Shown here: piece by piece, positions 3,434-64,000 of the stretch
How the letters are laid out: every line of letters starts with the position of its first letter
Position numbering within the stretch: the stretch's first letter is position 1
Assembly (NCBI RefSeq): GCF_000400505.1
Contig: NZ_CM001857.1
Location: forward strand, 2,068,439 to 2,132,438
Length of the DNA: 64,000 bases
Source: Musicola paradisiaca NCPPB 2511
GTDB taxonomy: Bacteria; Pseudomonadota; Gammaproteobacteria; Enterobacterales; Enterobacteriaceae
Reading direction: 5' to 3'
Notes under the pieces: generated by a model
What the model saw: the letters and a program-made list of their open reading frames with translations, nothing else
Told to the model about the DNA's origin: nothing
The model's database searches: none
Program-made: the position numbers and the translations under genes

Positions 3434-3460
3434 GCCCGGGGAACGGGCCAGTTCAGGCGT

Positions 3461-5179
3461 TCAACTCGACGGTGTTTCTTGATGTGGCGTTGTTTCTGTC
3501 AGCGCCTGCGGCAGCGTGGCGTAGAAGCTCAATCGGTTGGCGATTGGCGCCACGTTGGCGCGTGCCAATGTTTTCAACGGCTGGAACGGAATATCGGTGA
3601 TCACCAGATGTTTTTCGGCCGGCAGCAGTTCCACAAAGCGCAAAAAGGCGCTCAAACCACCGGCATCCAGTACGGATACCGCCTCCCATTGCAGAATCAC
3701 AACCGGATATTGTTCGCTGCGTTCCATCAGCTCGCTGAAAATTCGCTCGGCGGCAGCGAAAAACAGCGGGCCGTTGATGCGTAGCACCAGTCTCTCGCCG
3801 GGGAGAGTACCTGGTAGCTCGATGATGCGGGTCATACGCGCCACATTGCGCATGAACAGTATTGACGCCAGCACAATACCCACCGTGATGGCGATGACCA
3901 TATCGAACAACACGGTCAGCGACATGCAGAGCAACAGCACCAAAATGTCGTCCCGTGGGGCGCGTCTCAGTAGATAAACGACTTTATGCGCTTCGCTCAT
4001 ATTCCAGGCCACCAGCAGCAGCAGCGACGCCATCGCCGACAACGGTAGATAGGATAACCAGGGCGCCAGCACCAACAGAGAGAGCAATACCAGCAGTGCG
4101 TGGATCACGGCGGAGATCGGCGAACTGGCGCCGGCCCGCACATTGGCGGCGGAGCGGGCGATGGCGGCGGTAGCGGTGATCCCACCAAAGAACGGCGCCA
4201 CCATGTTACCGATACCCTGACCCAGCAATTCGCTGCTTGGATGATGTTTGCGGCCGGTCATACCGTCCAGCACCACGGCGCATAACAATGACTCGATCGC
4301 GCCGAGCATGGCCATGGAAAAGGCGGCGGGCAACAGTGCCGAGAGACTTTTCCAGGTCAGCGGCAGGGTCTGCCCGTCCGACGAGGGAATGTTCCAGGGA
4401 AATTCGAAGCGGGGCAGGATGGCGGGAATGCCCTGCCCACGGGTGCCGTCATCCAGCAGGTAGCTGAAACGTGAACCGATGGTGGCGACATCCATATGGA
4501 AAAAATGCCCTATCACCGCCATCACGGCGACGCCGGCCAGCAATGCAGGTAGATGTCCTGGCAGGCGAATGCCCAACCGTGGCCAGATGATCAACACGAA
4601 TAGCGTGGTCGCCCCGACCAGCGTATCGGCAAGATTCAGTGTCGGCAGCGCCTGGATCAGCGCCACGACCTTTTCCGTATAGTGTTCCGGCACCGTCGTC
4701 ATGGTCAGCCCGAAGAAGTCTTTGACCTGCATCGTGGCGATAGTGATGGCAATCCCGGAGGTGAAGCCGAGCGTAACCGGCAACGGAATGTATTCGATCA
4801 AGCGGCCGAAACGACATAGCCCCATCAACAGCAGAAACAGACCGGAAAGCAGCGTCGCCATCAGCAGCCCGGAAAGCCCGAACTGTTGGGAAACCGGGTA
4901 GAGGATGACGACGAACGCCGCCGTCGGGCCGGATACGCTGAAACGGGAACCGCCGCAGATAGCAATAATAATCCCGGCGATGGCAGAGGTATAAAGCCCG
5001 TACTGCGGTGGTACACCGCTGGCAATCGCCAGCGCCATGGCCAACGGGATGGCGATAATGCCGACGGTGATCCCGGCGATGACATCATGAGTAAAACGCG
5101 ACAGTGTGTATTTTTCCCGCCAGCAAGCTTCAATGAGCGCACTGAACGGTTTAATACCGTTAATTCGGTGTAATTTCAT
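3461..5179 (-). CDS. dauA: C4-dicarboxylate/anion transporter of the SulP family (DauA/YchM type)
   Basis: The protein is 572 residues from the ATG at 5179. In E. coli DauA is an aerobic C4-dicarboxylate (succinate) transporter. The N-terminus ([27 protein letters not shown]), the SulP signature around [17 protein letters not shown] and [19 protein letters not shown], and the long hydrophobic core match YchM. A cytoplasmic STAS domain occupies about the last 120 residues ([16 protein letters not shown], then [11 protein letters not shown]). The frame stays open upstream to 5410, but that part does not look like family sequence. The chosen ATG lacks a good ribosome site, so the start is the weak point. 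Confidence 0.93.
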
Positions 5180-26800: not shown

Positions 26801-27606
26801 TGGCGCAGCCGAAAGCGGATGAGAAGATCCGCTTCCGGGATATTCAGGCGCAGCCGCGCAAAATCATCTCCAGCCCGACCTGGTCAGGTCTGGAGGATGA
26901 GCATGTGTCCTACAACGCCTGTTACACCAACGTGCATGAGCTGATCCCGTGGCGCACCCTCTCCGGTCGGCAGCAGTTGTACCAGGATCATGAATGGATG
27001 CGCGCCTTCGGCGAAAGCTTGCTGGTGTATCGCCCGCCGGTGGATACCCGCGCCGCCGCGCCGTTACTGAACAGCAAGCCGAACGGCCATCGGGAAAAGG
27101 CGCTCAACTTCCTGACGCCGCACCAGAAATGGGGGATCCACTCCACCTACAGCGACAACCTGTTGATGCTGACGCTGGGGCGCGGCGGCCCGGTCATCTG
27201 GCTGAGCGAGGAAGACGCCCGCGAATTGGGCATTGCCGATAACGACTGGGTGGAAGCGTTTAACGCCAATGGCGCGCTGACCGCCCGGGCGGTGGTCAGC
27301 CAGCGTGTACCGGCCGGGATGACCATGATGTACCACGCGCAGGAACGACTGGTGAATCTGCCCGGTTCGGAAGTGACCGGGCAACGCGGCGGTATTCATA
27401 ACTCGGTGACACGTATCTGCCCGAAACCGACGCACATGATCGGCGGTTACGCCCAGCTGGCGTATGGCTTTAACTATTACGGCACCGTGGGATCGAACCG
27501 GGATGAGTTCGTGGTGGTGCGCAAGATGAACCGTATCGACTGGCTGGATGCCGACAGCCATGACCTTGACCACCACCAGCAATATCGCCAGCAGGAGAAA
27601 GCCTGA
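23839..27606 (+). CDS. narG: Respiratory nitrate reductase alpha subunit NarG
   Basis: The 1255-residue catalytic subunit (E. coli 1247) carries Mo-bisMGD and the FS0 cluster. It reduces nitrate to nitrite on the cytoplasmic face of the membrane, taking electrons from quinol through NarI and NarH. FS0 ligands are in HGVNCTGSCSW (near 55), with further Mo-bisMGD motifs such as IIAWGSNVPQTRTPDAHFF and MRSSTCLYSDIVLPTATWYEKDD-type sequence. There is no twin-Arg signal, as expected for cytoplasm-facing Nar. The stop overlaps the narH start (TGATG). FNR and NarL sites precede it. Confidence 0.98.
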   Translation: MSKFLDRLRYFRQLAEPFSGDHGQTLNTNRDWEDGYRSRWQHDNVVRSTHGVNCTGSCSWKIYVKNGLVTWETQQTDYPRTRPDLPNHEPRGCPRGASYSWYLYSANRLKYPMVRKRLLKLWRAVRAEHRDPVDAWGAIVNDVEKTQEYKRARGRGGFVRSNWQEVNELIAAANVYTAKTFGPDRIIGFSPIPAMSMVSYAAGARYLSLMGGVCLSFYDWYCDLPPASPQTWGEQTDVPESADWYNSSYIIAWGSNVPQTRTPDAHFFAEVRYKGTKTVAITPDYAEIAKLCDQWLNPKQGTDSALALAMGHVILNEFHLKQPRHYFTDYVRRYTDMPMLVLLEPRAEGYYAAGRLLRAADLVDNLGQQNNPEWKTIAIDDPSGDLVAPQGAIGYRWGEKGKWNLEQRDGVTQQDINLRLSLHGHHDEVVSVGFPYFGGAPSEHFAGVKLDEVLVHQLPVKRLRLADGSEALVTSVFDLTLANYGVDRGLNDANCATDYDQVKAYSPAWAEQITGVSRQNIIRIAREFAENADKTHGRSMIIVGAGMNHWYHLDMNYRGIINMLIFCGCVGQSGGGWAHYVGQEKLRPQTGWLPLAFGLDWQRPPRHMNSTSFFYNHTNQWRYETVAPQEFLSPLADRARFDGSMIDFNVRAERMGWLPSAPQLGANPLRIAAQAQAAGMTPQDYTVASLKDGSLRFAAEQPDNPQNFPRNLFIWRSNLLGSSGKGHEYMLKYLLGTEHGIQGQDLGAQGGVKPQEVEWREQGGEGKVDLVVTLDFRMSSTCLYSDIVLPTATWYEKDDMNTSDMHPFIHPLSAAVDPVWESKTDWEIYKGLAKTFSRVCQGHLGVETDVVTLPIQHDSAAELAQPLGVKDWKKGECDLIPGKTAPHIMTVERDYPQLYARFTSLGPLLDKLGNGGKGISWNTESEVALLKRLNRTQDAGVAAGRPRIETAIDAAEVILSLAPETNGQVAVKAWAALSQVTGRDHTHLAQPKADEKIRFRDIQAQPRKIISSPTWSGLEDEHVSYNACYTNVHELIPWRTLSGRQQLYQDHEWMRAFGESLLVYRPPVDTRAAAPLLNSKPNGHREKALNFLTPHQKWGIHSTYSDNLLMLTLGRGGPVIWLSEEDARELGIADNDWVEAFNANGALTARAVVSQRVPAGMTMMYHAQERLVNLPGSEVTGQRGGIHNSVTRICPKPTHMIGGYAQLAYGFNYYGTVGSNRDEFVVVRKMNRIDWLDADSHDLDHHQQYRQQEKA

Positions 27607-29167
27607 TGAAAATTCGTTCGCAAGTCGGCATGGTGCTGAACCTGGATAAATGCATCGGCTGCCATACCTGTTCAGTGACCTGTAAAAACGTCTGGACCAG
27701 CCGCGAAGGGGTGGAGTACGCCTGGTTTAATAATGTAGAAACCAAACCCGGCACCGGCTATCCCCATGCGTGGGAAGATCAGGACAAATGGCAAGGCGGC
27801 TGGATCCGTAAAATCAACGGCCGACTGGCGCCGCGCATGGGCAACCGTGTCGGGGTGCTGTCGAAGATTTTCGCCAACCCGGACGTCCCGGCGCTGGACG
27901 ACTACTACGAACCGTTCGACTACGACTACGGCCATCTGCAACGCGCCGGGGAGAGCCGGCACCAGCCGGTGGCGCGCCCACGCTCGTTAATCACCGGCCA
28001 GCGCATGAACTCCATCGAAAACGGCCCCAACTGGGAGGACGATCTGGGGGGCGAATTCAGCAAGCGCTCACAGGATAAGAACTTCGACGACATGCAGAAA
28101 GCCATGTACGGGCAGTTCGAGCACACCTTCATGATGTACCTGCCGAGACTGTGTGAGCACTGCCTCAACCCGGCGTGCGTCGCGACCTGTCCGAGTGGTG
28201 CGATTTACAAACGGGCGGAAGACGGCATTGTGCTGATCGACCAGGATAAATGCCGCGGTTGGCGCATGTGCCTGACCGGTTGCCCGTACAAAAAAATCTA
28301 CTTCAACTGGAAGAGCGGCAAATCGGAAAAGTGCATTTTCTGCTACCCGCGCATCGAATCCGGCATGCCGACGCTGTGCTCGGAAACCTGCGTCGGGCGT
28401 ATCCGCTATCTGGGGGTGCTCTGTACGACGCCGACCGCATTGAACAGGCGGCATCGGTGGAAAGCGAAACCGACCTGTACCGCCGCCAGCGGGAGATTTT
28501 CCTCGACCCGCACGACCCTGAGGTGATCGCCCAGGCGCAGCGCGACGGTATTCCGCTCAGCGTGATTGAGGCGGCGCAACAGTCGCCGGTGTACAAACTG
28601 GCGGTGGAGTGGCAACTGGCGTTGCCGCTGCACCCGGAATACCGCACGCTGCCGATGGTGTGGTACGTGCCGCCCCTGTCGCCGATCCAATCCGCCGCCG
28701 ATGCCGGCCAGCTGGCGCACAGCGGCGTGCTGCCGGACGTGGAGAGCCTGCGCATTCCGGTGCAGTATCTGGCCAATCTGCTGACGGCGGGCGATGTCGA
28801 GCCGGTACTGCTGGCGTTGCGTCGCATGCTGGCGATGCGCCATTACAAGCGGGCGCAGACCGTCGACCAGCTTGACGATACGCGCGCGCTGGAGCAGGTC
28901 GGGCTGACGCCGGCACAGGCCGAGGACATGTACCGCTATCTGGCGATCGCCAACTATGAAGACCGCTTTGTAGTGCCCTCCAGCCACCGTGAACTGGCGC
29001 GGGACGCCTTCCCGGAAGCGCATGGTTGTGGTTTCAGTTTCGGCGACGGTTGTCATGGCAGCGATTCGTCATTCAACCTGTTCAATAGCCGCCGTATCGA
29101 CGCCATCGACGTGACCAGCCAGACCCAGACCATGAGCCGCCGCCGGATGCAGGAGAACAAGTCATGA
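27606..29167 (+). pseudogene. narH: Respiratory nitrate reductase beta subunit NarH, frameshifted
   Basis: 519 residues if repaired (E. coli 512). The electron-transfer subunit has four Cys groups: CIGCHTCSVTCKNVW (near 16), CEHCLNPACVATCP, CRGWRMCLTGCP with the Nar-typical Trp in place of a Cys, and CIFCYPRIESGMPTLCSETC. At 28418-28423 the sequence GTGCTCTGTACGAC has two bases more than GTGCTGTACGAC. Without them the reading is LGVLYDADRIEQAASVESE and continues to 29167. As written, the product would lose about 240 residues and narGHJI would be inactive. A dinucleotide duplication error is more likely. narJ overlaps the end by ATGA. Confidence 0.92.
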
Positions 29168-51366: not shown

Positions 51367-52176
51367 ATGATCAAATTGATAATTACCGATCTTGATGGAA
51401 CCTTCTTGAACAGCGCCGGCGATTTCAACCGCATGTTGTTTCCCGACGTTAACGCGCTGATGCAGCGTAAAGGCGTGCATTTCGCACCCTGTACCGGCAA
51501 GCAGTGCGACCGGGTGGAAGAACTGTTCGGCGCGTCGGCGGCGGATTTCTGGATCCTGGGCGACAGCGCCACCCGCATCAAACACCGGGGGCGGTATGCC
51601 TACCAGTCGCTAATCGATAATGCGCTCGGCCGGGAGATGATCGCGACGCTAGAAGCCGTTAATCAGGAGCCGGTGATCATCGCCTGTACCCCCAACGGCG
51701 CGGTGCTGAAAGATTCGCTGGCGCCGGCGATGATCGAAAAAGTCAAAAAATCCTATGCCACTGTCCGGCTGGTGCCGGATTTCAACGCCGTAACGGATGA
51801 TTTTGTCAAAATCTCCCTGTTCGATGAAAACGGACGTTGCCATCAGACCCGTACTCATCTCGCACCTTATGACGATCGCGCTTATATCGTGGTGTCCGAA
51901 GCGGCCTGGATCGATATCGCCGATGCCGGGGTACATAAAGGCAGCACCGTGGCCCGGTTGCAGGACATGTTGCAGGTAACGCCGCAAGAAACCGCGGTTT
52001 TTGGTGACGGGTTAAACGACATCGAGTTGATGCGTTGCGGCGATTACAGCTTCGCCATGCGCAATGCGTTTGAGGAAACCAAAGCCGCCGCCCGTTTTAT
52101 CACGCGCTCCAACGACGACGACGCAGTGATGCACACCATCATCCAACTGCTGAACCTGCAACCGGACGCGGCGTAG
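51367..52176 (+). CDS. HAD-superfamily Cof-type phosphatase, YbjI-like
   Basis: The 269-residue type II HAD phosphatase has motif I DLDGTFLNS (nucleophile Asp9), motif II near CTGKQ, and motif III/IV VFGDGLNDIELM (about 213-224) after Lys in GVHKGSTVARL. It is similar to YbjI, which acts on flavin mononucleotide and sugar phosphates. ATG 51367 has GGAG 6 nt upstream; a GTG directly before it is less likely. The stop lies only 6 bp from the stop of the convergent dehydrogenase gene. Confidence 0.92.
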   Translation: MIKLIITDLDGTFLNSAGDFNRMLFPDVNALMQRKGVHFAPCTGKQCDRVEELFGASAADFWILGDSATRIKHRGRYAYQSLIDNALGREMIATLEAVNQEPVIIACTPNGAVLKDSLAPAMIEKVKKSYATVRLVPDFNAVTDDFVKISLFDENGRCHQTRTHLAPYDDRAYIVVSEAAWIDIADAGVHKGSTVARLQDMLQVTPQETAVFGDGLNDIELMRCGDYSFAMRNAFEETKAAARFITRSNDDDAVMHTIIQLLNLQPDAA

Positions 52177-52182
52177 CGCAGA

Positions 52183-53263
52183 TCAGGCGTAGCCCTGGCG
52201 GATGCGTCGCCGGAAGGCGTCCGGCGGCAGGGTATCCAGCGCCAGTGCGGGCAGGATGTTGTTTTGCTCGCGCAGATCCTGCCCCCCAGATGGCGCTGGC
52301 GACATGGATGGCGGCGGTGTGCAACGGCAGCGGCAGCCCGGCGTAACGGGCGATCGCCTCGGCGAACACCAGCCCGTAGGGGGTATCTTCCAGAATAAAC
52401 CGGGTGTCCAGCGTTTGCGGCCCCGCCGGGCCGCCGCGGCGGCGGTGCAGCTCGGCGGCGATATCCGCCAGTTCTTGTTGCGGCAGGTCGAATGACTGCC
52501 GAAAGTGCTCTTCAATACTGTGCAACGACAGACCGAACGCCGCCGCCAATTGCTGCCGCTCCTGCTCCAGCGCGCCAATCAGCCGCGCCACGCCGTCGGT
52601 CAGGTAGTGATACTGCGGCCAGCTTTCATGGCGCTCCATGCGGGTCACATTACAGAGCGCCAGCCCGAGGTGGGCAATCGGGTTGATATTGATGAGCGAT
52701 GTCGCCAGGACGTCGGATTGCGCCCGGAAGCGCGCGCCGAACAGCCCGGCGCACAGCGCGATGCTCTGCGCGTTGTGGGTTATCGGCAGGGTGGCGACAT
52801 CCACGAACTGGCGGGCCGCCATGATGGCGACGGAGTGGCCATCCGGTTGGCGCCGGGCGGTCAGCAGCGTGGTGCCCCAGGTGATGATCGGCAGCGTAAG
52901 GCCGCGTGTCGCCAGCTGCTCCGCCAGATAGAGCGCGCTGAGCGAGCAGGCGCTGTTGATGATAACCGACTGGCCCGGCTGCAAATGGGGCGCCAGCGCG
53001 TCCATCACCGCCCGGTGGCCATAGCCGGGCACGCACAGCAGGACGACCGGCGCATCCGCCACCGCCTGCGCGATATCCGGCGTGACCGCCAGCCGGTACT
53101 GCCCGGCGAGGATCCCCGTACAGGTCAGCGCGCCTGCGTCTTGCAACGCCAGCAGTTCGTCCGCCACGGCCGACCACAACACTGGCGTATGCCCGGCGTG
53201 CGCCAGCCAGCCCGCGCTGGCCAGGCCGATATTGCCGGCTCCCAGAATAGTGACTTTCATCAT
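52183..53263 (-). pseudogene. Octopine/nopaline dehydrogenase-family NAD(P) oxidoreductase, frameshifted
   Basis: 359 residues if repaired. The N-terminal Rossmann motif is VTILGAGNIGLASAGWLAHAGH. The C-terminal opine-dehydrogenase domain contains the catalytic-type His/Asp region (NINPIAHLGLALCN) and HRRRGGPAGPQTLDTRFILEDTPYG. The family condenses an amino acid with a 2-oxo acid, or does the reverse oxidation. At about 52283-52288 six G (coding strand) break the frame; five give AIWGQDLREQNNILPALAL and a stop at 52183. As written the frame drifts to 52139, into the neighbouring gene. No opine transport gene is fused to it. Confidence 0.87.
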
Positions 53264-53686: not shown

Positions 53687-54652
53687 CTAGTTATTCAGCG
53701 TGGTCATGATGCGGTGATGATCGTCTGAATGAAACAGGGCAAACGCCGGCAAGCGTTCCCGGGCGCTGGCCTCCAGCGCGTCGATCAGTTGCAGCACCGG
53801 GGTTCTTGGCGTTCGGGACTGCGGCGTCACCACGCCGAAGTGGTAGGGAATGTCCGTATCCAGTTCCCGAATCGCCAGCCCGTCCAGCGGCAGGCCGTAG
53901 GCCGTCACCGGCTCGGTAATCGCCGCGCCCAATCCGGCGCGCACGCAGGACAGAATGGTGGCGGAAGAATTGGTTTCGATCACGTACCGGGGTTTGATGC
54001 CCGCTTTTTTCAGCACCTGTTCAAAGCGGTTGCGCAGCCGGTACGGGTTGTACAGCGTAATCAGCCGACGACTGGCCAGCGCCTGCAACGCCACCACCGG
54101 CGCCTGCGCCAGCGGATCGTTATCGTTGAGCACTACCACGCAGCGGGATTGGCCAATCCAGTGGCGATTCACATTCTGATGCTCCAGCGGCAGGCTGCTG
54201 ATGGCCAGGTCGGCATGTCCTGCAATCACCGCCTGCAACGTTTGCTCGGCGGATTGGCTGAGCAGTTGTAACGGTGCGGTCAGCGTCAGCCGCGCCAGCG
54301 CCTGCGGCAGCAGGCCGACCGACATCGCCGGGGTGGCGGCCACCACCAGCGGTTTCTCTTCGTCGTCGGCGATCTCCCGTACCCGGACTTGCACCTGCCG
54401 CAGCGAGATCAGCGCATGCTCTACCGATTCGTGCAACTGATACGCCTGCTCGGTCGGGGTAATGCGCGGCCCGTTGCGCTGAAACAGCGGATAACCGATT
54501 TTGCTTTCGAATTCCTGAATCAGACGGGTCACAGCCGGTTGGGAACGATGCAGCAGCTTGGCCGCCGCGGTAATGCTGCCGGCGGAAATCACCGTGGCGA
54601 AGGCTTCCAACTGGCGTAAATCCAGATCGTCCAACAGGGGGGTATGGGCCAT
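53687..54652 (-). CDS. LysR family transcriptional regulator
   Basis: The 321-residue protein has an N-terminal helix-turn-helix (LDLRQLEAFATVISAGSITAAAKLLHRSQPAVTRLIQEFESKIG) and a periplasmic-binding-like effector domain from about 95. The start at 54652 gives a normal LysR N-terminus; in-frame sequence upstream to 54757 is not family-like. It is divergent from the flavoprotein-hydrolase-ABC operon, which it very likely controls, with 304 bp between. Confidence 0.92.
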   Translation of the reverse strand: MAHTPLLDDLDLRQLEAFATVISAGSITAAAKLLHRSQPAVTRLIQEFESKIGYPLFQRNGPRITPTEQAYQLHESVEHALISLRQVQVRVREIADDEEKPLVVAATPAMSVGLLPQALARLTLTAPLQLLSQSAEQTLQAVIAGHADLAISSLPLEHQNVNRHWIGQSRCVVVLNDNDPLAQAPVVALQALASRRLITLYNPYRLRNRFEQVLKKAGIKPRYVIETNSSATILSCVRAGLGAAITEPVTAYGLPLDGLAIRELDTDIPYHFGVVTPQSRTPRTPVLQLIDALEASARERLPAFALFHSDDHHRIMTTLNN

Positions 54653-54956
54653 GACGCCGTCTTCCGTCCGTTGTGGTTTTTTCACAGGGTCTCCCGCATA
54701 GCTCGTTGACGCACTCCGTGTCTTCCCGACGGGAAAACGCGGCGGGATTATCACCAACGCGCGCTCTATCCATCGTGAGCCTGGTCAATTTTGGCGACAG
54801 GATGCGGCATTTTCCCCCTGATGTATATGCAATTTTCCTCATAACCTCAGCGTTTTTTATCATTAATTAAACAAATCAATACGCGATAATAATGTGTAAA
54901 ACACATATTTGGCGGATGTTCGTCCGTCGCATGATTGAACACAGGAGTTGGAATCC
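54653..54956. promoter_or_regulatory. Divergent LysR-operon control region
   Basis: ATGTGT-AAA-ACACAT (54892-54906) is a perfect short palindrome 51 bp before the flavoprotein ATG, inside an AT-rich stretch (54830-54910). It is the best candidate LysR operator. No other sites are clear. Confidence 0.45.
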
Positions 54957-56415
54957 ATGGCGTCACGACAGGGGGGCGGGTTGCTCGCGTTGGAAGCCCG
55001 ATTGAAAGAGGAACTGCAATGGCTGGAATTGCCCGCTCGGCCCTGGGTGCCGCCGCGACAAACGGCGCAGGGGCAACCGGTGCTGGATGTGGCGATTCTG
55101 GGGGCCGGCATGTGCGGATTAGCCGCCGCGGCGGCGTTGCGGCTGGCGGGGGTGGACAATGTGCGCTGCTTCGACCGGGCGGGCGCCGGGCGTGAAGGGC
55201 CGTGGAAAACCTACGCGCGCATGGCGACGCTGCGCTCGCCGAAACAACTAACCGGCCCGGCGCTGGGGTTGGCGTCGCTGACATTTCGCGCCTGGTATCA
55301 GGCACAGTTCGGCGAACACGCCTGGGATGCGCTGGACAAGATCCCCCCGCACCCAGTGGATGGATTATCTGGTCTGGTATCGTCGGGTGCTGGATCTGCC
55401 GGTGCAGAACGACACCGAAATCACCCGGATCCTGCCGGGTACGGACGGGCTGCTGGCGCTGGAAACCCGCCATCTGACCCGCGGCGAGGTGCGACGCTAC
55501 TACGCACGCCGGGTGGTGGTGGCGAGCGGGCGCGATGGATTAGGCGGGCCGTATGTGCCGGTTATCGCCGAAACGCTGGATCGGCGCTACTGGGCGCACA
55601 CCTCCGACGCCATCGACTTTGACGCTCTGCGCGGTAAACGTGTGGCGGTGATCGGCGCGGGCGCCTCGGCGATGGACAATGCCGCCGAAGCGTTGGAGCG
55701 TGGGGCAGGCGAAGTGCACCTGTTTTTCCGGCGGCAGGATATCCCGCGTATCAACAAATTCACCGGCATTGCCAGTCAGGGGGTGGTGCAGGGTTTTCTG
55801 GGGCTCAGCGACGACTGGAAGTGGAAATTTCTGCATACCACGCTGGCGGCCCAGACGCCGCCGCCGCGGGATTCCACCCTGCGGGTGTCGCGTCATGCCA
55901 ACGCCTTTTTCCATGCCGGCAGCTCGGTCGAGGCGTTGACCACGACGGATGGCGCGGTACGCCTGACGACGCCCAAAGGCGACTGGTCAGTTGATTTCGT
56001 GATTTTCGCCACCGGTTTTCAGGTGGATTTGCCGCAGCGTAGCGAACTGGCGCACTTCATTCCGGCCATCAAACAGTGGCGCGATGTGTTTACGCCGGCG
56101 GCGGGTCTGGAAAACGCGGAGCTAGCGGCGGCGCCCTATCTGGGGCCGGCGTTCGAGTTTCAGGCCAAAACGCCGGAACAAAGCCCGCTGCTGGCGCGGA
56201 TCCACTGTTTCAATTACCCCTCGACCCTTACCCACGGCAAGCTGTCCGGCGATATTCCGGCGGTGAGCGACGGCGCTCGCCGGCTGACGCAGGGCATTAT
56301 CCGCAGCCTGTTCGTGGAGGACAGAGAACAACACTACGCCGACCTGCTGGCGTTTGAGACGCCGGAGTTGTTGGGCGACGAATGGCGCGACGCCGACGAG
56401 GTGCGGCATGGCTGA
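54957..56415 (+). pseudogene. FAD/NAD(P)-binding flavin monooxygenase-like protein, frameshifted
   Basis: 485 residues if repaired. An FAD motif (VAILGAGMCGLAAAAAL, about 46-62) and a NADP-binding motif (RVAVIGAGASAMDNAAEAL) with a preceding HTSDAIDF resemble flavin-containing monooxygenases, though the classical FMO fingerprint is incomplete. Family-like text PKQLTGPALGLASLTFRAW and ARMATLRSPK follows the first motif. At 55343-55348 six C break the frame; five read DKIPRTQWMDYLVWYRRVLDLPVQND. ATG 54957 has AGGAG about 10 nt upstream. It is first gene of the operon, and its stop overlaps the hydrolase start by 8 bp. Confidence 0.87.
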
Positions 56416-57250
56416 GATGGTCGTCAACGGCGCCTCGCTGGTGTACGCGCAGGCGGGAGAATCACATCCGCAAGCCATCATTATCCTGCACGGTGGCCGC
56501 GGTATCGGCGATCACCGCGGTGACTTTCAGGCGTTTCTGCCGCTGGCGGATCGCTACCATCTTATCGCCTACGATCAGCGCGGCTGCGGGCGGTCGAGCC
56601 TGACGCCGCCGTTGACCTTCGACCAGTTGGTGGACGATCTGGACGCGGTGCGTCGGCAACTGGCCGGCGATAAGCCGGTTATCGTGATCGGCGGTTCCTT
56701 CGGCGGGATGATCGCCCTGAGCTATGCGCTGAAATATCCGCAAGGGCTATCGCATCTGATTCTGCGCGGTACCGCCCCCAGCCATCACCACGAGGCGCAG
56801 GCCATCGCCAACTTCAACGCGCGGTTGCACAAAGCGCCCAGCGCATCGCTGGCCATGATCGACAAGCTGTTTTCCGACCGCGTGACGGATGACGTCGAAC
56901 TGCGCCTGATCTGGCTGGCGTTGCAGCCGCTGTATTACGAGCAGTTTGACGCCGATGCCGCGCTGGAACGCACCCGCACGCTGTCGCTGCACGTCACAAC
57001 CCACAATGCGTTGTTCGCCGACAAAGCCTATGACCTGCGCCACCGTCTGGCGGATATCCAGGCGCCGACGCTGGTGGTGGTGGGCGGCGAAGACTGGATC
57101 TGCCCGCCGGCGCAATCCCGGCTGATCGCCGAAGGCATTCCGGGGGCGCGCTATCTGGAGATCGCCGGCGCCAATCATCCGGTGCATATCGAGCAGAACG
57201 CCCGCGTTCTGGCGGCGATCCGCGCCTTCCTGTCGCCGCAGGAGGTGTGA
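56408..57250 (+). CDS. Alpha/beta hydrolase, proline iminopeptidase-like
   Basis: The 280-residue protein has the oxyanion HGGRG (near 28), the nucleophile elbow GGSFGGM with Ser, the acid in VGGEDWICPP and His in ANHPVHIE. The region AYDQRGCGRSS is shared with proline iminopeptidases and related S33 enzymes, so an N-terminal peptidase, amidase or ester hydrolase activity is likely. Translational overlap with the flavoprotein before it and the permease after it (TGATG) ties it to substrate handling in this operon. Confidence 0.88.
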   Translation: MAEMVVNGASLVYAQAGESHPQAIIILHGGRGIGDHRGDFQAFLPLADRYHLIAYDQRGCGRSSLTPPLTFDQLVDDLDAVRRQLAGDKPVIVIGGSFGGMIALSYALKYPQGLSHLILRGTAPSHHHEAQAIANFNARLHKAPSASLAMIDKLFSDRVTDDVELRLIWLALQPLYYEQFDADAALERTRTLSLHVTTHNALFADKAYDLRHRLADIQAPTLVVVGGEDWICPPAQSRLIAEGIPGARYLEIAGANHPVHIEQNARVLAAIRAFLSPQEV

Positions 57251-58170
57251 TGGCGCGCTTTATTCTGGTTCGGCTGTTGGAGGCGCTGATCGCCGTCTGG
57301 GGCGTGGTGACACTGGTGTTTTTCATCACCCGCGTACTGGGGGATCCCACCGTGCTGCTGTTACCGGTGGGTGCCGGGCAGGCGGAGCTGGACGCCTTGC
57401 GCCATGCGCTGGGGCTGGATCTCCCGTTGTATCAACAGTACGCCCGCACGCTGTGGGCCATGCTGCACGGGGATTTCGGCGTCTCGTTTCAGTACATGCA
57501 GCCGGCGTTTGAGGTGGTGCTACGGCATATGCCCGCCACCGTGACGCTGGCGCTGACGGCGCTGCTGTTCGGGGTGCTGCTGGGCGCGGCGGCGGGTGCG
57601 GTCGCCGCCCTGATGCGCGGCACGCTGCTGGAGCTGGTGGTGATGGTGGCGGCGTTGCTGGGGCAGGCGACGCCGGTCTTCTGGCTGGGCGTGATGCTGA
57701 TCCTGCTGTTTTCGGTGCAACTGGGCTGGCTGCCCACCGGCGGCGCGGGCGGCGTGCGCCATGTGGTGCTGCCCGCCGCCACGCTGGCGGTGTTCGTCAC
57801 CGCCTCCATCGCCCGTCTGCTGCGCTCCGCCATGCTCGATACCCTGCGGGAGGACTATGTGCGTACCGCCCGCGCCAAAGGGCTGTTGCCGCATACGGTG
57901 TTTTTCTGGCACGTGGCGCGTAACGCGCTGATCCCGGTCGTCACCATGGTGGGTATTATCGCCGGCGAGCTGCTGGGCGGCTCGGTGGTGACGGAAACGG
58001 TGTTCGCCTGGCCCGGCGTCGGACGGCTGATCGTGCAGGCGATTCAGGTACACGATTTCCCGGTGATCCAGGCCGGCGTAGTGGTGGTCGCCGTGCTGTT
58101 CATCGCCATCAATGTGATGGTGGACATGTTGTACGGCGTGCTTGACCCGCGTATTTCCCATCGTCGTTAA
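57250..58170 (+). CDS. Peptide-type ABC importer permease (DppB family)
   Basis: The 306-residue permease starts at the ATG overlapping the hydrolase stop. It has the first membrane segment at about 9-30, LGLDLPLYQQYARTLWAMLHGDFGVSFQY and the EAA loop REDYVRTARAKGLLPHTVFFWHVARNALIPVVT. The C-terminus (ETVFAWPGVGRLIVQAIQVHDFPVIQA) is classical for DppB/OppB. The ligand is unknown; the enzymes encoded with it suggest a peptide-like or amide compound. Confidence 0.94.
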   Translation: MARFILVRLLEALIAVWGVVTLVFFITRVLGDPTVLLLPVGAGQAELDALRHALGLDLPLYQQYARTLWAMLHGDFGVSFQYMQPAFEVVLRHMPATVTLALTALLFGVLLGAAAGAVAALMRGTLLELVVMVAALLGQATPVFWLGVMLILLFSVQLGWLPTGGAGGVRHVVLPAATLAVFVTASIARLLRSAMLDTLREDYVRTARAKGLLPHTVFFWHVARNALIPVVTMVGIIAGELLGGSVVTETVFAWPGVGRLIVQAIQVHDFPVIQAGVVVVAVLFIAINVMVDMLYGVLDPRISHRR

Positions 58171-58182
58171 GGAGGCTACGCG

Positions 58183-59040
58183 ATGAAAACCGTTATTTGG
58201 GCGCTGAGCCGCCACCGCGGCGGCCTGTTTGGTCTGGCGATGATCCTGTTGCTGTTGGCGGCGGCGCTGGCGGCGCCCTGGTTCGGGTTGCCGTCGCCCA
58301 CCCAGTCAAACCTGCTGCTGCGCATGCAGCCGCCGAGCTGGAGTGGGCTACTGACGCCGGGGGCGCATCCGCTGGGCACCGATGAGCTGGGGCGCGACGT
58401 GTTGTCACGGCTGTTGTTCGGCAGCCGCATCACGCTGACGGTGGCGCTGAGCGCGGTGCTGCTGGGCGGTGTCGTCGGCGTGCTGCTGGGCATGCTGGCC
58501 GGGTACTACGGCGGGCTTATCGATCGTGTGCTGATGCGGCTGGTGGATATTCAACTGGCGTTGCCGCTGATGTTGTTGGCGCTACTGGTGGTGGCGGCGC
58601 TGGGGCCGTCGTTGCAGAACCTGGTGTTGGTGCTGGCGCTGACCAGTTGGATCCGCTTTGCCCGCATCATTCGCGGGCAGACGCTGTCGCTGCGCGAACG
58701 GGAGTTCATCTTGTCGGCGCAGGCCATCGGCGCGAGCGGCTGGCGCATTCTGCTGCGCCATCTTCTGCCCAACGTACTGACGCCCGCGTTGGTGGTGGCG
58801 ACGCTGGAGCTGGCGCGCATCATCATCATGGATGCGGCGCTGTCGTTTCTCGGGCTGGGGGTGCAGCCGCCTGCGCCAAGCTGGGGGCGGATGCTGGCGG
58901 ACGGGCGGGTTTACTTGTCCAGCGCCTGGTGGATCGTCACCTTTCCCGGCCTGAGCATTCTGCTCACGGTATTGAGCGTCAACCTGCTGGGCGATGGGTT
59001 GCGCGACTATTTTGACCCGACATTGAGGAACCAACGATGA
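58183..59040 (+). CDS. Peptide-type ABC importer permease (DppC family)
   Basis: The 285-residue permease has AAGGAGG 7-13 nt before the ATG. Motifs are LGTDELGRDVLSRLLFGSRITL, the EAA loop FILSAQAIGASGWRILLRHLLPNVLTP and the ending LSFLGLGVQPPAPSWGRMLADGRVYL with NLLGDGLRDYFDP. It is coupled to the creatinase-like gene by an ATGA overlap. Confidence 0.94.
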   Translation: MKTVIWALSRHRGGLFGLAMILLLLAAALAAPWFGLPSPTQSNLLLRMQPPSWSGLLTPGAHPLGTDELGRDVLSRLLFGSRITLTVALSAVLLGGVVGVLLGMLAGYYGGLIDRVLMRLVDIQLALPLMLLALLVVAALGPSLQNLVLVLALTSWIRFARIIRGQTLSLREREFILSAQAIGASGWRILLRHLLPNVLTPALVVATLELARIIIMDAALSFLGLGVQPPAPSWGRMLADGRVYLSSAWWIVTFPGLSILLTVLSVNLLGDGLRDYFDPTLRNQR

Positions 59041-60239
59041 ATTCACCGCTGCATACTTCTGCCGCGTCGCGGCTTCCGGCCCGTGTCGAGCGTGTTCGCC
59101 GCGCGATGGCGGCGCAAGGGGTCGACGTCATGGTGTGCTTCAAGCCGGAGCACAGTTTCTACCTCAGCGGGTTTAACCCGATTATCTATTCCCACCCGGT
59201 GATCGCCATTGTCGCCGTCGGGCTCGACCCGATCATGCTGGTGCACGCACTGCGCGACAACCACGGACGCGGCAGTGCCTGGGTGAGCGATGTGCGTCTG
59301 TACGGCGCTTGGTCGAACAAGGTGACGCTGGGCGCCGACTGGCAGACCGCGTTGGCGGCGATTCTGGGCGATCTCGGCCTGGCGAATAAAACCGTCGGCA
59401 TCGAAGAGGATTTTCTGTCGTTGCGACGCGCTCATGAACTGCGGCAGACGCTGCCGCAGGCGAGTTTTACCGACATTTCGGCGCTACTGGAACAGGCCCG
59501 CCTGATCAAGGACGCGGATGAAATTGCCCACGCCCGTATCGCCGCGCGTCTGGCCGACCGGGGGATGGACGCGGCGATTGCCGCGGTCGCCGCCGGCGGC
59601 AACGAACGGGACATCAGCCTGGCATCCACCACCGCCATGCAACAGTTATGGGCGCAGGATTATCCGCAGGTGGAAGTGTGCGACTTCGGCTCGCTGGAAG
59701 GCGGCGTCCAGAGCGGGCTGGCGACCTGGGCGCTGGCGGGGGAACGGCTGTTTTTCAACTGCGACAACCCGACCACGCGCCGGCCGCAGCCGGGCGAAAC
59801 CGTCGGCATCTTCATCTGGAGCATCGCCAACGGCATCCATGCGGAAAACGAGCGCACGGTGGCGCTCGGCCCGCTGGCAGGCCCGCAACGGCGGCTGTTG
59901 GATACCATCCTGACGATTCGCAGCGAGGTGGATGCGCTGATCCGCCCCGGCACGCCCTATCGGGAGCTGTTTCTGGCGGTGAAATCCCGGCTGACGGCGC
60001 ACGGGTACGGCGACTACATTCCCGGCCGCATCGGCCACGGCATCGGGTTAGGGGCGCATGAGCACGCCTCGTTGGACTCGCGATCGTCGCTGGTGCTGGC
60101 GCCGGGCATGTTGATCACCTTTGAGCCGAACCTGCGGGTGCCGGGCGTTGGGGGCACCCAGATTTCCGATACCGTGCTGATTACCGACGGGGGGCGCGAA
60201 TACTTGACGCGCACCGCCGGCGGCTACCTTGAGGTGTAA
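59037..60239 (+). CDS. M24-fold (pita-bread) hydrolase, creatinase-like
   Basis: The 400-residue protein has a creatinase/prolidase N-terminal domain (RVERVRRAMAAQGVDVMVCFKPEHSFYLSGF) and an M24 domain from about 165. His (GHGIGLGAHEH) and Glu (ITFEPNL) are kept. The two aspartates that metallo-aminopeptidases use as metal ligands are replaced: in PGETVGIFIWSIANGIHAENERTV the first position is Phe and the second Glu. That stretch with its ERT resembles creatinase (non-metal) rather than Xaa-Pro aminopeptidase. A second Glu ligand near the end (GGTQISDTVLIT) is also changed to Ser. It probably hydrolyses a C-N bond in the imported compound. Confidence 0.85.
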   Translation: MNSPLHTSAASRLPARVERVRRAMAAQGVDVMVCFKPEHSFYLSGFNPIIYSHPVIAIVAVGLDPIMLVHALRDNHGRGSAWVSDVRLYGAWSNKVTLGADWQTALAAILGDLGLANKTVGIEEDFLSLRRAHELRQTLPQASFTDISALLEQARLIKDADEIAHARIAARLADRGMDAAIAAVAAGGNERDISLASTTAMQQLWAQDYPQVEVCDFGSLEGGVQSGLATWALAGERLFFNCDNPTTRRPQPGETVGIFIWSIANGIHAENERTVALGPLAGPQRRLLDTILTIRSEVDALIRPGTPYRELFLAVKSRLTAHGYGDYIPGRIGHGIGLGAHEHASLDSRSSLVLAPGMLITFEPNLRVPGVGGTQISDTVLITDGGREYLTRTAGGYLEV

Positions 60240-60243
60240 CGTC

Positions 60244-61248
60244 ATGGCGTTGCTGGAAGTCAAAAATCTGAGCGTGGTGTTTGACGGCGCCGCCGGGCCG
60301 ATACGGGCGGTGAACGATCTGTCCTATACGCTGACGGCCGGCGAGACGCTGGGGATCGTCGGCGAGTCCGGCTCCGGTAAAAGCGTGCACGCGCTGGCGA
60401 TGGTCGGGCTGCTGGCGTCGGCGGGGCGGGTGACGGCCGGCGAGGTCTGGTTCGACGGCCGCGACCTGCTGCGGCTTTCGCGGCGAGAGCGGCGCACGGT
60501 ATGGGGCCGGGAGATCGGCTTTGTGTTTCAGGATCCGATGACCTCGCTCAACCCGGTGCTGACCATTGAGCGTCAAGTGACGGAGCCATTGCGGCGTCAT
60601 CTGGGATTGTCGGCGCGCGCGGCGCGGGAGCAGGCGGTCGATCTGCTGGATCAGGTGGGGATCGTCAATCCGCGTCAGCGCTTGGGCCAGTACCCGCACG
60701 AGTTTTCCGGCGGTATGCGCCAGCGGGTGATGATTGCCATCGGCATCGCCTGCCGTCCGAAGCTGCTGATCGCCGATGAAGCCACCACCGCGCTGGATGT
60801 CACCGTCCAGGCGCAGATTCTGGCGCTGGTGCGCGACCTGAAACGGCAAATCGGCACCACCGTTATCTGGATTACCCACGACATGGGCGTGGTGGCCGGG
60901 CTGGCGGATACCGTTCAGGTGATGTACGGCGGCCGCATCATGGAGCGCGGCCCGGTGGAGGCCATTTTCGACGCGCCGCACAGCGCCTATACCTGGGGGC
61001 TGCTGAAATCGCTGCCGACCATTGCCCGGCGCGGCGCCGGGCGGTTGTACCCGATCCCCGGCAATCCGCCGGATCCGGCCCGCCTGCCGCCGGGCGATCC
61101 GTTCGCGCCCCGCAATCCGTTCGCCACCGAGCGCTGCTTTCGGGAAGTCCCGCCGCTGCGCCAGGTCGCGGGCGGCGCGCCCGGCCATCAGGTGGCGGCC
61201 TGGTACGATTTGCCTGCGCTGCTGGCGGCGCAGGGAGGTGCGGCATGA
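60244..61248 (+). CDS. Peptide-type ABC importer ATPase (DppD family)
   Basis: The 334-residue subunit has Walker A GESGSGKS (about 41-48), the Q-loop in [13 protein letters not shown], signature FSGGMRQRV, Walker [13 protein letters not shown] and the H-loop in WITHDMG. The C-terminal extension ([29 protein letters not shown]) is the OppD/DppD region with a Cys. The ribosome site GAGGTG overlaps the stop codon of the M24 gene. Confidence 0.94.
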
Positions 61249-62168
61249 CCCATGAGACACTCAACCCGACGCCGCTGCTGCGCGTCGAAGGATTACGGAA
61301 AACCTACCGCCCGACGGGCTGGCTCCAGGGCGGCGAGACGCCGCACAAGGCGGTGGACGGCCTCAGCTTCGATATTTGGCCGGGAGAAACGCTGGGGCTG
61401 GTGGGGGAGTCCGGTTCGGGCAAAAGCACCACCGGGCGACTGGTGCTGCAACTGGAGCGGCCCGACCGCGGCGAGATTCTCTTTGACGGCCAGCGCCTGA
61501 ACGGGCTGTCGCCGCGGCAGCTCAAGCCCTATCGGCGCGATATGCAGATCATTTTTCAGGATCCCTATTCCGCGCTCAACCCGCGCATGACCGTCGGCGA
61601 CATCGTGGCGGAGCCGCTGGTGGTGCACCGGTTGGCAACCGGCGCGCAGGCGCGGCGCGAGCGGGTGGCGGAGCTGTTCCGGCTGGTGGGATTGTCGCCG
61701 GATTTCATGCGGCGCTACCCGCACGAGTTTTCCGGCGGTCAGCGTCAGCGGGTTTGCATCGCCCGGGCGATTGCGCTGCGCCCGCGCTTTATCGTCGCCG
61801 ACGAACCTATTACCGCGCTGGATGTGTCGATTCAGGCGCAAATCGTCAACCTGTTTCAGGATTTGCAGGAGCAGTTGGGCCTGACCTATCTGTTCATCGC
61901 GCACGATCTGGCGATGGTGCGCTACCTGTGTCACCGGGTGGCGGTCATGCTGCGCGGGCGGATCGTGGAGATGGGGCCGACGGAAGCCCTGTTCACGCAC
62001 CCGCGCCACCCGTATACCCAGGCGCTGCTGTCCGCCATTCCGGTGCCCGATCCGCGTATTGAGCGGCAACGACGGCCGCTGAGCGTGGATATCGCCGCCT
62101 GCCTGCCGGATGCGCCGATGCAATGGCGGGAAGCGGCGCCGCAGCACTTTGTCCTGCAACCACAATGA
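61245..62168 (+). CDS. Peptide-type ABC importer ATPase (DppF family)
   Basis: The 307-residue subunit overlaps the previous gene by ATGA. It has Walker [28 protein letters not shown], signature FSGGQRQRV, Walker [13 protein letters not shown] and the H-loop in FIAHDLAMV. All catalytic residues are normal, in contrast to the other importer of this window. The stop codon is the first TGA of a 15-bp tandem repeat. Confidence 0.94.
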
Positions 62169-62209
62169 CTTATAAATAAATGACTTATAAATAAATAATT
62201 TATAAAACA
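62165..62209 (+). repeat. Three 15-bp AT-rich tandem repeats before the binding-protein gene
   Basis: ATGACTTATAAATAA occurs twice in tandem and a third degenerate copy (ATAATTTATAAA) follows. The repeats start in the DppF stop codon and lie in a 101-bp gap otherwise free of features, in a very GC-rich operon. Confidence 0.75.
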
Positions 62210-62269
62210 ATAACCTACACCACAATGACCGACAACCACCATAAATCATGCTTCAACCAGGGGATTCAC

Positions 62270-63769
62270 ATGAAGAGAACGATAATATCGCCCAGGGCGA
62301 CCGTCGCCATCGCTGCGGCGTTGATGTTTTCCAGCGTCGCCGGGGCGCAGACCGCCCGTATTGCGCTCGGCACCACCGTCAATACGCTGGATCCGCACAT
62401 GACCGCGTCGGTCGGCACCGACCTGAGCGTGCTCAGTCACATTTACCCGGCGCTGGTGCTGCGTGGGCCGGATCTGAAACTGCATCCGGAACTGGCGACG
62501 TCGTGGCAGGCGGTGAACGATACCACCTGGCGCTTCACGCTGCGTCCGGGGGCGAAATTCGCCGACGGCGAACCGCTGGACGCAGCGGCGGTGAAGTGGA
62601 ATCTGGATCGGGTGCGCGACCCGAAAGTCAACGCCCGCATCAAAGCCTGGTTTACGCAGGTTTCCGACGTCAAGGTGATTTCCCCCACCGAGCTGGAGGT
62701 GATCACCGCGTCGCCATATCCCGGTTTTGTCGATCAGATCTCTATGTTCCTGTTGTTGCCGCCGACGTGGGCCGGCAGCCATAACCCGGCGACGGAAACC
62801 CTGTCCGGCGGCCGTTATGTGCTGGCGGAAAACGTGCCGGGCGACCACCTGACGCTGAAGGCCAACCCAGACTTTTTCGGCGCCAAACCGACGTTTGATA
62901 CCGTCGAGTTTCGCATTATTCCGGAATCGGCCAGCCGCATCGCCGCGTTACTGACCGGGGAGGTATCGCTGATTACCGGCATCCCGACGGCGGAGCTGGC
63001 GCGCATCAACCAAAGCGGCAAAGCGGAGGCCGGCGCGGTGCCGTCGATGCGCAGTGTGATGATCAAGTTCAATACCGAGCAGGCGCCGCTGGATAACAAG
63101 ACGGTGCGGCAGGCGCTCAACTACGCGGTGGACAAAAACGCGATTTCCCAGGTGCTGTTCGACGGTCAGGCGCCGGTTTCCCAGTGCCAGGTGCTGACGC
63201 CGTCCTATTTCGGTTACAACCCGGCGCTCAAGGCGTATGACTACAACCCGGACAAGGCGCGCCAACTGCTGAAGCAGTCCGGGGCCGACCTGTCCCGGAG
63301 TATTACGCTGGACGTGCCTTCCGGCACCTACCTGCAGGGCAACGAAGTCGCGCAGGTGGTGGCGGCGCAGTTGGGCGAGGTCGGGCTGAAAGTGACCATC
63401 AATCAGCTGGAGTTCAGCAGCTACATGAACAAATACCTGAAGACCCATGAGCTGGCGCCGACGTCGCTGCTGGCGCAGGCTTGGCCGACGCTGGATGCCG
63501 ACGGCTTGCTGACGCTATTTGCACCGGGCAACAACTATGCGTACTGGCACCACGCCGGCTTTGGTCAGGCACTGGCGAACGGGCGCGCGGGCATCGACCC
63601 GGCGAAGCGGCTGGCGGCCTACCGCCAGGCGACGGAAATCATGTGCGATGAAGCGCCGGTGATCTTCCTGTATGCCCAGCCCGCTACCTACGGCGTGGCA
63701 AAAAACGTCCACTGGGCCAAACGCGGTGATGACTGGGTGCGCGCTTTCGACCTGACGCCGGCGCAATAA
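62270..63769 (+). CDS. Peptide-type ABC importer periplasmic binding protein (SBP family 5)
   Basis: The 499-residue protein has signal peptide MKRTIISPRATVAIAAALMFSSVAGA. Family sequence follows: LGTTVNTLDPHMTASVGTDLSVLSHIYPALV, HPELATSWQAVNDTTWRFTLRPGAKFADG and VMIKFNTEQAPLDNKTVRQALNYAVDK. It supplies the importer genes just upstream. ATG 62270 has AGGGG about 7 nt upstream; an earlier in-frame start at 62225 would spoil the signal peptide. It is probably the last transport gene of the operon. Confidence 0.93.
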   Translation: MKRTIISPRATVAIAAALMFSSVAGAQTARIALGTTVNTLDPHMTASVGTDLSVLSHIYPALVLRGPDLKLHPELATSWQAVNDTTWRFTLRPGAKFADGEPLDAAAVKWNLDRVRDPKVNARIKAWFTQVSDVKVISPTELEVITASPYPGFVDQISMFLLLPPTWAGSHNPATETLSGGRYVLAENVPGDHLTLKANPDFFGAKPTFDTVEFRIIPESASRIAALLTGEVSLITGIPTAELARINQSGKAEAGAVPSMRSVMIKFNTEQAPLDNKTVRQALNYAVDKNAISQVLFDGQAPVSQCQVLTPSYFGYNPALKAYDYNPDKARQLLKQSGADLSRSITLDVPSGTYLQGNEVAQVVAAQLGEVGLKVTINQLEFSSYMNKYLKTHELAPTSLLAQAWPTLDADGLLTLFAPGNNYAYWHHAGFGQALANGRAGIDPAKRLAAYRQATEIMCDEAPVIFLYAQPATYGVAKNVHWAKRGDDWVRAFDLTPAQ

Positions 63770-63888: not shown

Positions 63889-64000
63889 ATGAAGAATGAC
63901 GATCAGGATTGTGGTGAACCGGTCTCGCCGGTCTGGATCCGCAGGGCGCGCTGTCTGCGCTGCGCCGGCGGCGCCCGGAGTGGGTCGCCGGCATTGCCGA
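63889..64000 (+). CDS. Start of a further gene cut by the window end, product unknown
   Basis: A good ribosome site (ACAGGAGG) lies 4-11 nt before ATG 63889 (MKNDDQDCGEPVSPVWIRR...), but the composition of this frame is odd (Cys/Arg-rich). A second frame, open after a TGA at 63929, reads TGLAGLDPQGALSALRRRRPEWVAGIA and looks more like real protein. Either a frame error lies between them or only one is coding. About 37 codons are visible, so no function can be given. Confidence 0.4.
   Translation, partial: MKNDDQDCGEPVSPVWIRRARCLRCAGGARSGSPALP

Follow-up and report, generated by a model that had tools for sequence, protein, structure and literature searches.

What small molecule is taken up and dismantled by an operon that joins a complete peptide-type importer to a flavoprotein, a hydrolase and an enzyme of creatinase-like fold? 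The question is posed by a gene cluster near the end of the window, by which we mean the whole stretch of 64,000 nucleotides of Musicola paradisiaca NCPPB 2511 DNA that was analysed. A first-pass annotation of these letters had recognized the cluster as an uncharacterized uptake and breakdown operon. In what follows, we consider how the cluster is built, how widely it is shared, what its M24 enzyme can and cannot be, and which substrate best accommodates these observations.

Organization of the Operon and Its Importer

Eight genes on the forward strand span positions 54957–63769, and a LysR-family regulator gene (53687–54652, reverse strand; PF00126 and PF03466) diverges from them with its start at about 54652. 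Following the regulator, the order is a frame-broken flavin monooxygenase (FMO) gene of the two-Rossmann (class B/N-hydroxylase-like) kind (54957–56415), an alpha/beta hydrolase (56408–57250), permeases of DppB type (57250–58170; PF00528 and PF19300) and DppC type (58183–59040; PF00528 and PF12911), a creatinase-like M24 (“pita-bread”) enzyme (59037–60239; PF00557 and PF01321), ATPases of DppD type (60244–61248) and DppF type (61245–62168), each with PF00005 and PF08352, and a family-5 solute-binding protein (62270–63769; PF00496, 2.5e-77). The likely start of the last reads MKRTIISPR, and its open reading frame (ORF) extends further, from 62225. Neighbouring genes overlap at 56408/56415, 57250/57250, 59037/59040 and 61245/61248, and are elsewhere separated by 12 bp (58170/58183), by 4 bp (60239/60244) and, ahead of the binding-protein gene, by 56–101 bp. 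These overlaps and short gaps bear out the first description: the cluster is a genuine, tightly coupled operon with a divergent LysR gene. In Brenneria sp. 4F2 (L007), a LysR gene of 71% identity occupies the same divergent position. A promoter scan gave results at chance level, and a terminator scan exceeded shuffled sequence yet was unspecific.

The importer is of the DppABCDF/GsiABCD type, as its family-5 binding protein, two BPD permeases and two oligo_HPY ATPases are all present, and the Pfam families confirm the full Dpp-type importer originally proposed. Its architecture resembles those of the GsiABCD glutathione importer and of DppABCDF, although none of the equivalog cut-offs for these systems is reached by the operon proteins. 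The nearest solved structures to the binding protein are 5u4o, followed by YliB/GsiB (1uqw) and DppA; against TIGR04028 it scores 110 bits, where the cut-off is 468.5. The hydrolase, at first called S33-like, has an alpha/beta fold and matches Abhydrolase_1 (PF00561, 4.8e-33) as well as the S33 model (PF12146, 5.2e-25), while remaining below every NCBIfam cut-off listed.

The Broken Flavoprotein Frame and Probable Erosion of the Local Copy

The flavoprotein had been read as an FMO-like protein, which holds for its class: both motifs of the two-Rossmann enzymes are present, GAGMCG and GAGASA. The coding sequence is nonetheless split between two frames: ORF 54948–55622 supplies the frame of the N-terminal part and ORF 55327–56415 that of the remainder, with the change at a run of six C on the forward strand (55343–55348). 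Programmed frameshifting was rejected because the gene is in frame in 30/30 relatives, each with a single open frame of about 480 amino acids. A firm verdict of pseudogene was dropped as well, since selection appears intact (dN/dS against Brenneria of 0.13 for the N-terminal and 0.20 for the C-terminal part, on par with neighbouring genes) and the same assembly holds other frame breaks. These include narH, broken at 28250–28526 between intact narG and narJI, and a GsiA-like ATPase gene at L088:528. The break may accordingly be an assembly error instead of true damage, and we give an even chance to the explanation that it arose in sequencing or assembly and that the operon works save for missing accessory genes. 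Such an explanation is compatible with the cassette reading developed below. What a base-calling error cannot yield is the large internal deletion through which the adjacent CMD/AhpD gene has decayed.

This remnant, of the TIGR04029/TIGR04030 type, begins just after the binding-protein gene (63890–64000, forward strand) and continues past the window to L076:1187. It retains a partial TIGR04029 match; roughly 260 codons have been deleted, such that 34 amino acids of CMD (71%) run straight into the AhpD C-terminus, and further frame breaks are present. No BisC-type reductase gene lies in the local cluster. Composition and distribution both speak for horizontal acquisition. The GC fraction of the cluster is 0.65 vs. 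0.57 in the rest of the window. Among 295 species sampled from the order there was no further match, and among 398 of the phylum just one, yet identity reaches 73% with Brenneria and about 69% with Neorhizobium. Our favoured reading, held with slightly less than even confidence, takes the operon for a copy of a catabolic cassette that is conserved elsewhere, a copy gained by horizontal transfer and now partly eroded; the substrate would probably be an S-substituted cysteine or a sulfoxide-type compound. With CMD/AhpD internally deleted, the reductase gene missing from the cluster and the flavoprotein frame broken, the pathway is probably impaired in this M. paradisiaca strain.

A Conserved Cassette in Other Genomes

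Loci were gathered solely by a search anchored on the M24 enzyme, which returned 33 loci from about 22 genera or groups. Among the roughly 20 genera are rhizobia as well as alphaproteobacteria from the sea and enterobacteria associated with plants. Permeases and binding protein each occur in 32 of the 33, ATPases in 31, the FMO in 30 and the alpha/beta hydrolase in 25. The set also comprises an AhpD-type protein (29), a BisC-type molybdenum S/N-oxide reductase (28), a CMD protein (26) and the L-cysteine desulfhydrase Cds1 (10). The same genes thus surround the M24 gene in 30–32 of 33 loci, an association far beyond chance, and the set is not local but scattered over many soil, plant and marine bacteria. 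The check for conserved co-occurrence that the first-pass annotation called for is thereby answered, and its proposal of import, C-N hydrolysis and oxidation by one coherent operon is strengthened. It had missed the frame break, the wide spread of the set and the downstream CMD/AhpD remnant, along with the genes of intact relatives that hint at the chemistry, namely the S/N-oxide reductase, the CMD/AhpD pair and the cysteine desulfhydrase.

The reductase of the relatives scores 732 bits with TIGR00509, and its top PDB matches are DMSO/TMAO reductases. Their CMD/AhpD proteins match TIGR04029 and TIGR04030, some under the curated cut-off, and Cds1 reaches 571 bits with NF052478, slightly below the cut-off of 600. 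In five loci a DUF885 peptidase-like gene, outside the core, adjoins the binding-protein gene. Bordetella trematum has the M24 gene near a Cds1-like gene, with neither importer nor FMO.

The closest described layout is the cassette of the TIGR04027–TIGR04030 families (KPN_01854/KPN_01858 and Avi_7169/Avi_7170), in which a single operon likewise encodes a Dpp-type importer and its family-5 binding protein together with a flavin monooxygenase and a protein of CMD/AhpD type. The M. paradisiaca genome has this cassette in intact form elsewhere (L086:6525–14112). Its oxygenase, however, is a luciferase-like FMN-dependent enzyme (TIGR04027, 561 bits), of which the M24 cluster has none, whereas the M24 operon encodes a two-Rossmann FAD protein; no M24, alpha/beta hydrolase or BisC gene was seen in the L086 copy, and CMD/AhpD, locally a deleted remnant in the M24 operon, is present in most of that operon's relatives. 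No description emerged from literature searches on the complete gene set or on the names of the KPN/Avi families.

The M24 Enzyme

Prolidases and Xaa-Pro aminopeptidases of the M24B group bind metal through a five-ligand set (D, D, H, E, E; taken from PepQ, PMC4213023). Aligned with P. furiosus prolidase, the M24 enzyme replaces three of the five (D209 by F259, D220 by E270, E327 by S377), the second conservatively, and keeps H280 as H334 and E313 as E363. Across 27 sequences, the loss is seen in all 27 at two positions and in 26 at the third, with F or L at position 259, and the site D243/E270/E272/H334/E363/S377 is invariant. Judged from these residues, the enzyme is predicted to lack the dinuclear metal site of prolidases. 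Scores with all peptidase models fell far under curated cut-offs, and plain use of prolyl peptides was rejected on the loss of the metal ligands.

In an AlphaFold2 model (pLDDT 87.9), the top PDB fold match is creatinase (1kp0), which is also nearest in sequence over the N-terminal 300 residues, while prolidases are the top sequence matches of the M24 domain. Creatinase (1chm, 1kp0) and ectoine hydrolase DoeA (6twk) share the pita-bread fold and an incomplete prolidase metal set with the M24 enzyme, at 21–24% identity. Replacement of the metal ligands “in the creatinase manner” is thus half right: the fold agrees and the guanidinium-binding Glu262 is kept as E272, but two metallopeptidase ligands remain and the catalytic His232 aligns to Asp243, invariant in the 27 sequences. 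E363 we take to be the counterpart of the guanidinium-binding Glu358, and Ser377 presumably stands where creatinase has a His close to its C-terminal motif. On this alignment, the enzyme would belong neither to the creatinases nor to the metallopeptidases. Creatine as substrate finds no support, and a creatine/sarcosine pathway was rejected given the absent catalytic His and an operon devoid of sarcosine enzymes. The ectoine pathway was likewise set aside, as DoeA models fell far short (NF038259, 83 bits against a cut-off of 575; TIGR02993, 58 against 613). The DMSP lyase DddP offers a precedent for an M24 fold acting on an organosulfur compound, but a DddP-like lyase was rejected on a weaker fold match (E about 5e-20 vs. 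1e-32 for creatinase) and 16% identity.

We suggest, tentatively, that the M24 enzyme of the cassette represents a distinct and probably metal-poor pita-bread family. Its invariant site would read Asp/Glu/Glu/His/Glu/Ser, Asp taking the place of the catalytic His of creatinase, and the enzyme would perform a C-N or C-S cleavage that is new to the literature, as part of an organosulfur (or N-oxide) catabolic pathway that is likewise undescribed and has spread horizontally.

Proposed Pathway and Alternative Substrates

In the pathway we envisage, the importer would take up a small peptide-like compound, most likely a derivative of an S-substituted cysteine or of the corresponding sulfoxide. Cutting of C-N and acyl bonds would fall to the M24 enzyme and alpha/beta hydrolase, the molybdenum enzyme and flavoprotein would act at the S (or N) oxide by interconversion or cleavage, and the CMD/AhpD cysteines might reduce an oxidized thiol or peroxide by-product; the desulfhydrase would then free sulfide from the cysteine thus formed. 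Favouring sulfur are the S/N-oxide reductase, CMD/AhpD and Cds1 of the relatives and the kinship of the binding protein to GsiB, which serves glutathione. Weighing against it, BisC-type enzymes reduce N-oxides as well, the closest fold relatives of the flavoprotein are amine N-hydroxylases, Cds1 occurs in only 10 of 33 loci, the TIGR04027–TIGR04030 families carry no assigned function, and the local LysR scores best with models other than CysB.

The closest known chemistry, alike in function only, is S-alkylcysteine salvage by CmoO/CmoJ in Bacillus subtilis, which in the excerpts used of PMC10863075 combines flavin-dependent oxidation with C-S cleavage of cysteine derivatives, passes through a sulfoxide and a sulfenic acid, and proceeds via N-acetylation and deacetylation, CmoJ being a YxeK/DszA homologue. 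Those excerpts include no creatinase-like enzyme or molybdenum reductase, and among the cluster genes there is no luciferase-like monooxygenase, acetyltransferase or deacetylase. An organosulfur cluster of Advenella includes an AhpD-family gene (PMC5373536), and cysteine metabolism has been linked to YciW (PMC10821248).

Alternatively, the cassette could degrade an N-rich small molecule such as an amidine, guanidine, N-oxide or N-hydroxy compound, with the flavoprotein N-hydroxylating an amine and the molybdenum enzyme reducing N-oxides or N-hydroxy forms. The M24 enzyme would act in the way of creatinase and ectoine hydrolase, hydrolysing a C-N bond of amidine-like character. The closest folds to the Brenneria flavoprotein copy are the ornithine/diamine N-hydroxylases SidA, PvdA and DfoA, although TM-scores are just 0.62–0.66 (approximate, on query), and the creatinase-like fold, N-terminal sequence and E272 of the M24 enzyme point the same way. 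Given the exchange of His232 for Asp and the low DoeA scores, and with the association of cysteine desulfhydrase and CMD/AhpD left unexplained, we consider this account unlikely. An ordinary oligopeptide operon, with the M24 enzyme a Xaa-Pro peptidase, the hydrolase a proline iminopeptidase and the flavoprotein an unrelated neighbour, would suit the prolidase and S33/proline iminopeptidase matches but is improbable in view of the replaced ligands, the low peptidase scores and the constant company of FMO, BisC and CMD/AhpD.

Implications

The eroded copy of M. paradisiaca is poorly suited to testing, and because the operon is damaged, growth experiments with M. paradisiaca itself might give a misleading answer; intact relatives are preferable. 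If our reading is correct, the cassette would constitute a defined set of 10–12 genes whose substrate and chemistry are directly testable. Moreover, the TIGR04029 and TIGR04030 families would be tied to a second importer-oxygenase cassette, and the M24 fold would gain a new catalytic-site variant.

Organization and integrity of the cluster

The M. paradisiaca genome is a single contig of 4.63 Mb, the one genome representing its genus in the collection searched. ORF and Pfam analysis bore out the gene content proposed by the first-pass annotation in several respects: a divergent LysR gene lies at the front and, on the + strand, there are genes for a flavoprotein, an alpha/beta hydrolase, an importer (two BPD permeases, a family-5 binding protein and a pair of ATPases with oligo_HPY domains) and an M24 protein with Creatinase_N and Peptidase_M24 domains. 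Because several neighbouring genes overlap by a few bases, the cluster is likely a single operon. An octopine/nopaline dehydrogenase-family gene (52139-53263, -) adjoins the LysR gene on the same strand; the counterpart position in Brenneria sp. 4F2, our intact comparator, holds a TctABC-type transporter instead.

Directly 3' of the binding-protein gene lies a remnant (window 63890 to position 1187 of L076, the locus continuing past the window end) in which a CMD gene of TIGR04029 type begins and then passes straight into the C-terminal end of an AhpD-type gene; roughly 260 codons have been lost. This is a deletion rather than base-calling noise, and is different in kind from the flavoprotein break described below. 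A Glyoxalase_3-domain (VOC) gene (L076:1189-1977) follows at once, and occurs near the M24 gene in no relative. The host locus also lacks a BisC-type gene (molybdenum S/N-oxide reductase) at the position occupied in Brenneria, and its closest counterpart at any other site in the genome shares only 43% identity.

The flavoprotein

The ORFs show that the flavoprotein gene is not a single open frame: its N-terminal part and remainder lie in different frames, switching at a six-C run (55343-55348). The gene is in frame and stop-free in all 30 relatives that carry it. Against Brenneria, dN/dS is 0.13 and 0.20 for the two parts, similar to the intact neighbours (0.14-0.23), and any inactivation is therefore recent. 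A sequencing error and a true pseudogene are roughly equally likely, because the assembly carries other mid-gene frame breaks, in narH (28250-28526) and a GsiA-like ATPase (L088:528), and several of its breaks seem to be of a single base. narH (respiratory nitrate reductase beta, 27606-29167) is split into a pair of ORFs that overlap but differ in frame, while narG and narJI on either side look intact; the split reflects either assembly error or recent loss. The L088 regions concerned (1-1700 and 2524-3960) hold the GsiA-like double ATPase and an ornithine-cyclodeaminase-like ORF that appears out of frame in its first half. A DMSO/selenate-reductase-like gene on the host contig (G000:C1:2630046-2632118) contains one internal TAA; an adjacent second copy is stop-free.

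The intact Brenneria protein has a two-Rossmann flavin monooxygenase fold, nearest among solved folds to the ornithine/diamine N-hydroxylases SidA, PvdA and DfoA (TM about 0.65), and no NCBIfam equivalog fits it. Such a protein could carry out S-oxygenation or N-oxygenation.

The M24 enzyme

Among solved structures, prolidases are nearest by sequence to the C-terminal domain and creatinase to the N-terminal 300 residues; the AlphaFold2 model (pLDDT 87.9) is nearest in fold to creatinase 1kp0 (E 1.4e-32). The five prolidase ligand positions read F/L259, E270, H334, E363 and S377. The claimed replacement of metal ligands thus holds for three (F/L259, E270, S377), while H334 and E363 are kept. 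Likeness to creatinase extends to the fold and to Glu262 (here E272) but not to the catalytic His232, replaced by Asp243, on which an assignment as creatinase failed. The site residues are invariant across 27 sequences except at position 259, which is Asp in one. Judged by these residues, the chemistry looks like that of the fold's non-peptidase branch, and a mononuclear metal site is possible.

Conservation and spread

With the M24 protein as sole query, a search of 84,980 species genomes yielded 33 close loci. Their identity to the query is 53-73%, and they are spread over about 22 named genera or groups, including Brenneria, Neorhizobium, Rhizobium, Bosea, Pelagibacterium, Pseudooceanicola, Stappia, Labrenzia, Brevundimonas, Xanthomonas, Rhodoferax and Bordetella. 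Within 8 kb flanks, permeases and binding protein accompany the M24 gene at 32 of the 33 loci, ATPases at 31, the flavoprotein at 30 and the hydrolase at 25. Relatives carry three extras absent or broken in the window: the BisC-type reductase (28/33; absent from the host cluster), CMD and AhpD (26/33 and 29/33; broken in the host) and an L-cysteine desulfhydrase-like PLP enzyme (10/33). Several rhizobial loci (L008, L010, L012, L013, L039) have a metallopeptidase-like DUF885 protein joined to the cassette downstream of the binding protein. Bordetella trematum has the M24 gene near a desulfhydrase-like (Cds1-like) gene, without importer or flavoprotein (L036:2828-9173). Two TctC-like receptors are encoded there too, as is a protein resembling methyltransferases of the MtaA/CmuA family; this is a distinct cluster that may share the M24 chemistry.

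The cassette is rare and scattered, occurring in 1 of 398 species in a phylum sample and, elsewhere in the order, in none of 295 sampled species. GC is 0.65 in the cluster vs 0.57 in the rest of the window; narG GC3 is nearly as high. Horizontal spread would be the natural explanation of this distribution.

Candidate substrates and affinities

By profile search the binding protein is nearest 5u4o, then GsiB (YliB) and DppA, which suggests a small, peptide-like ligand. We inferred the substrate from the genes accompanying the M24 gene: the BisC-type reductase, CMD/AhpD and L-cysteine desulfhydrase would act on an S-substituted cysteine or a sulfoxide and release sulfide, a reading that we hold tentatively, at a little under an even chance. 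The CmoO/CmoJ flavoenzymes dealkylate S-alkylcysteine via sulfoxide and sulfenic acid (PMC10863075), an Advenella organosulfur cluster contains an AhpD-family gene (PMC5373536), and YciW of E. coli influences cysteine metabolism (PMC10821248); a weak model match hints faintly at kinship between YciW and the CMD/AhpD proteins. Action on a nitrogen compound is the less likely reading but keeps real weight because of the N-hydroxylase-like flavoprotein fold and the creatinase likeness of the M24 enzyme.

The host also carries an intact TIGR04027-TIGR04030 cassette (L086:6525-14112; G000:C1 about 32.5-40.1 kb), comprising an LLM monooxygenase (TIGR04027, 561 bits), a CMD-AhpD fusion (TIGR04030, 313 bits), an importer and a TIGR04028 binding protein (877 bits). 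The window operon follows its plan of importer and flavin monooxygenase, with CMD/AhpD present as the deleted remnant. It is set apart by the type of oxygenase and by the M24 enzyme, the hydrolase and the reductase, and its binding protein falls under the TIGR04028 cut-off. For these reasons the window operon would be a variant of the TIGR04027-TIGR04030 kind, both being known from genes alone, and one that appears new relative to the open-access literature.
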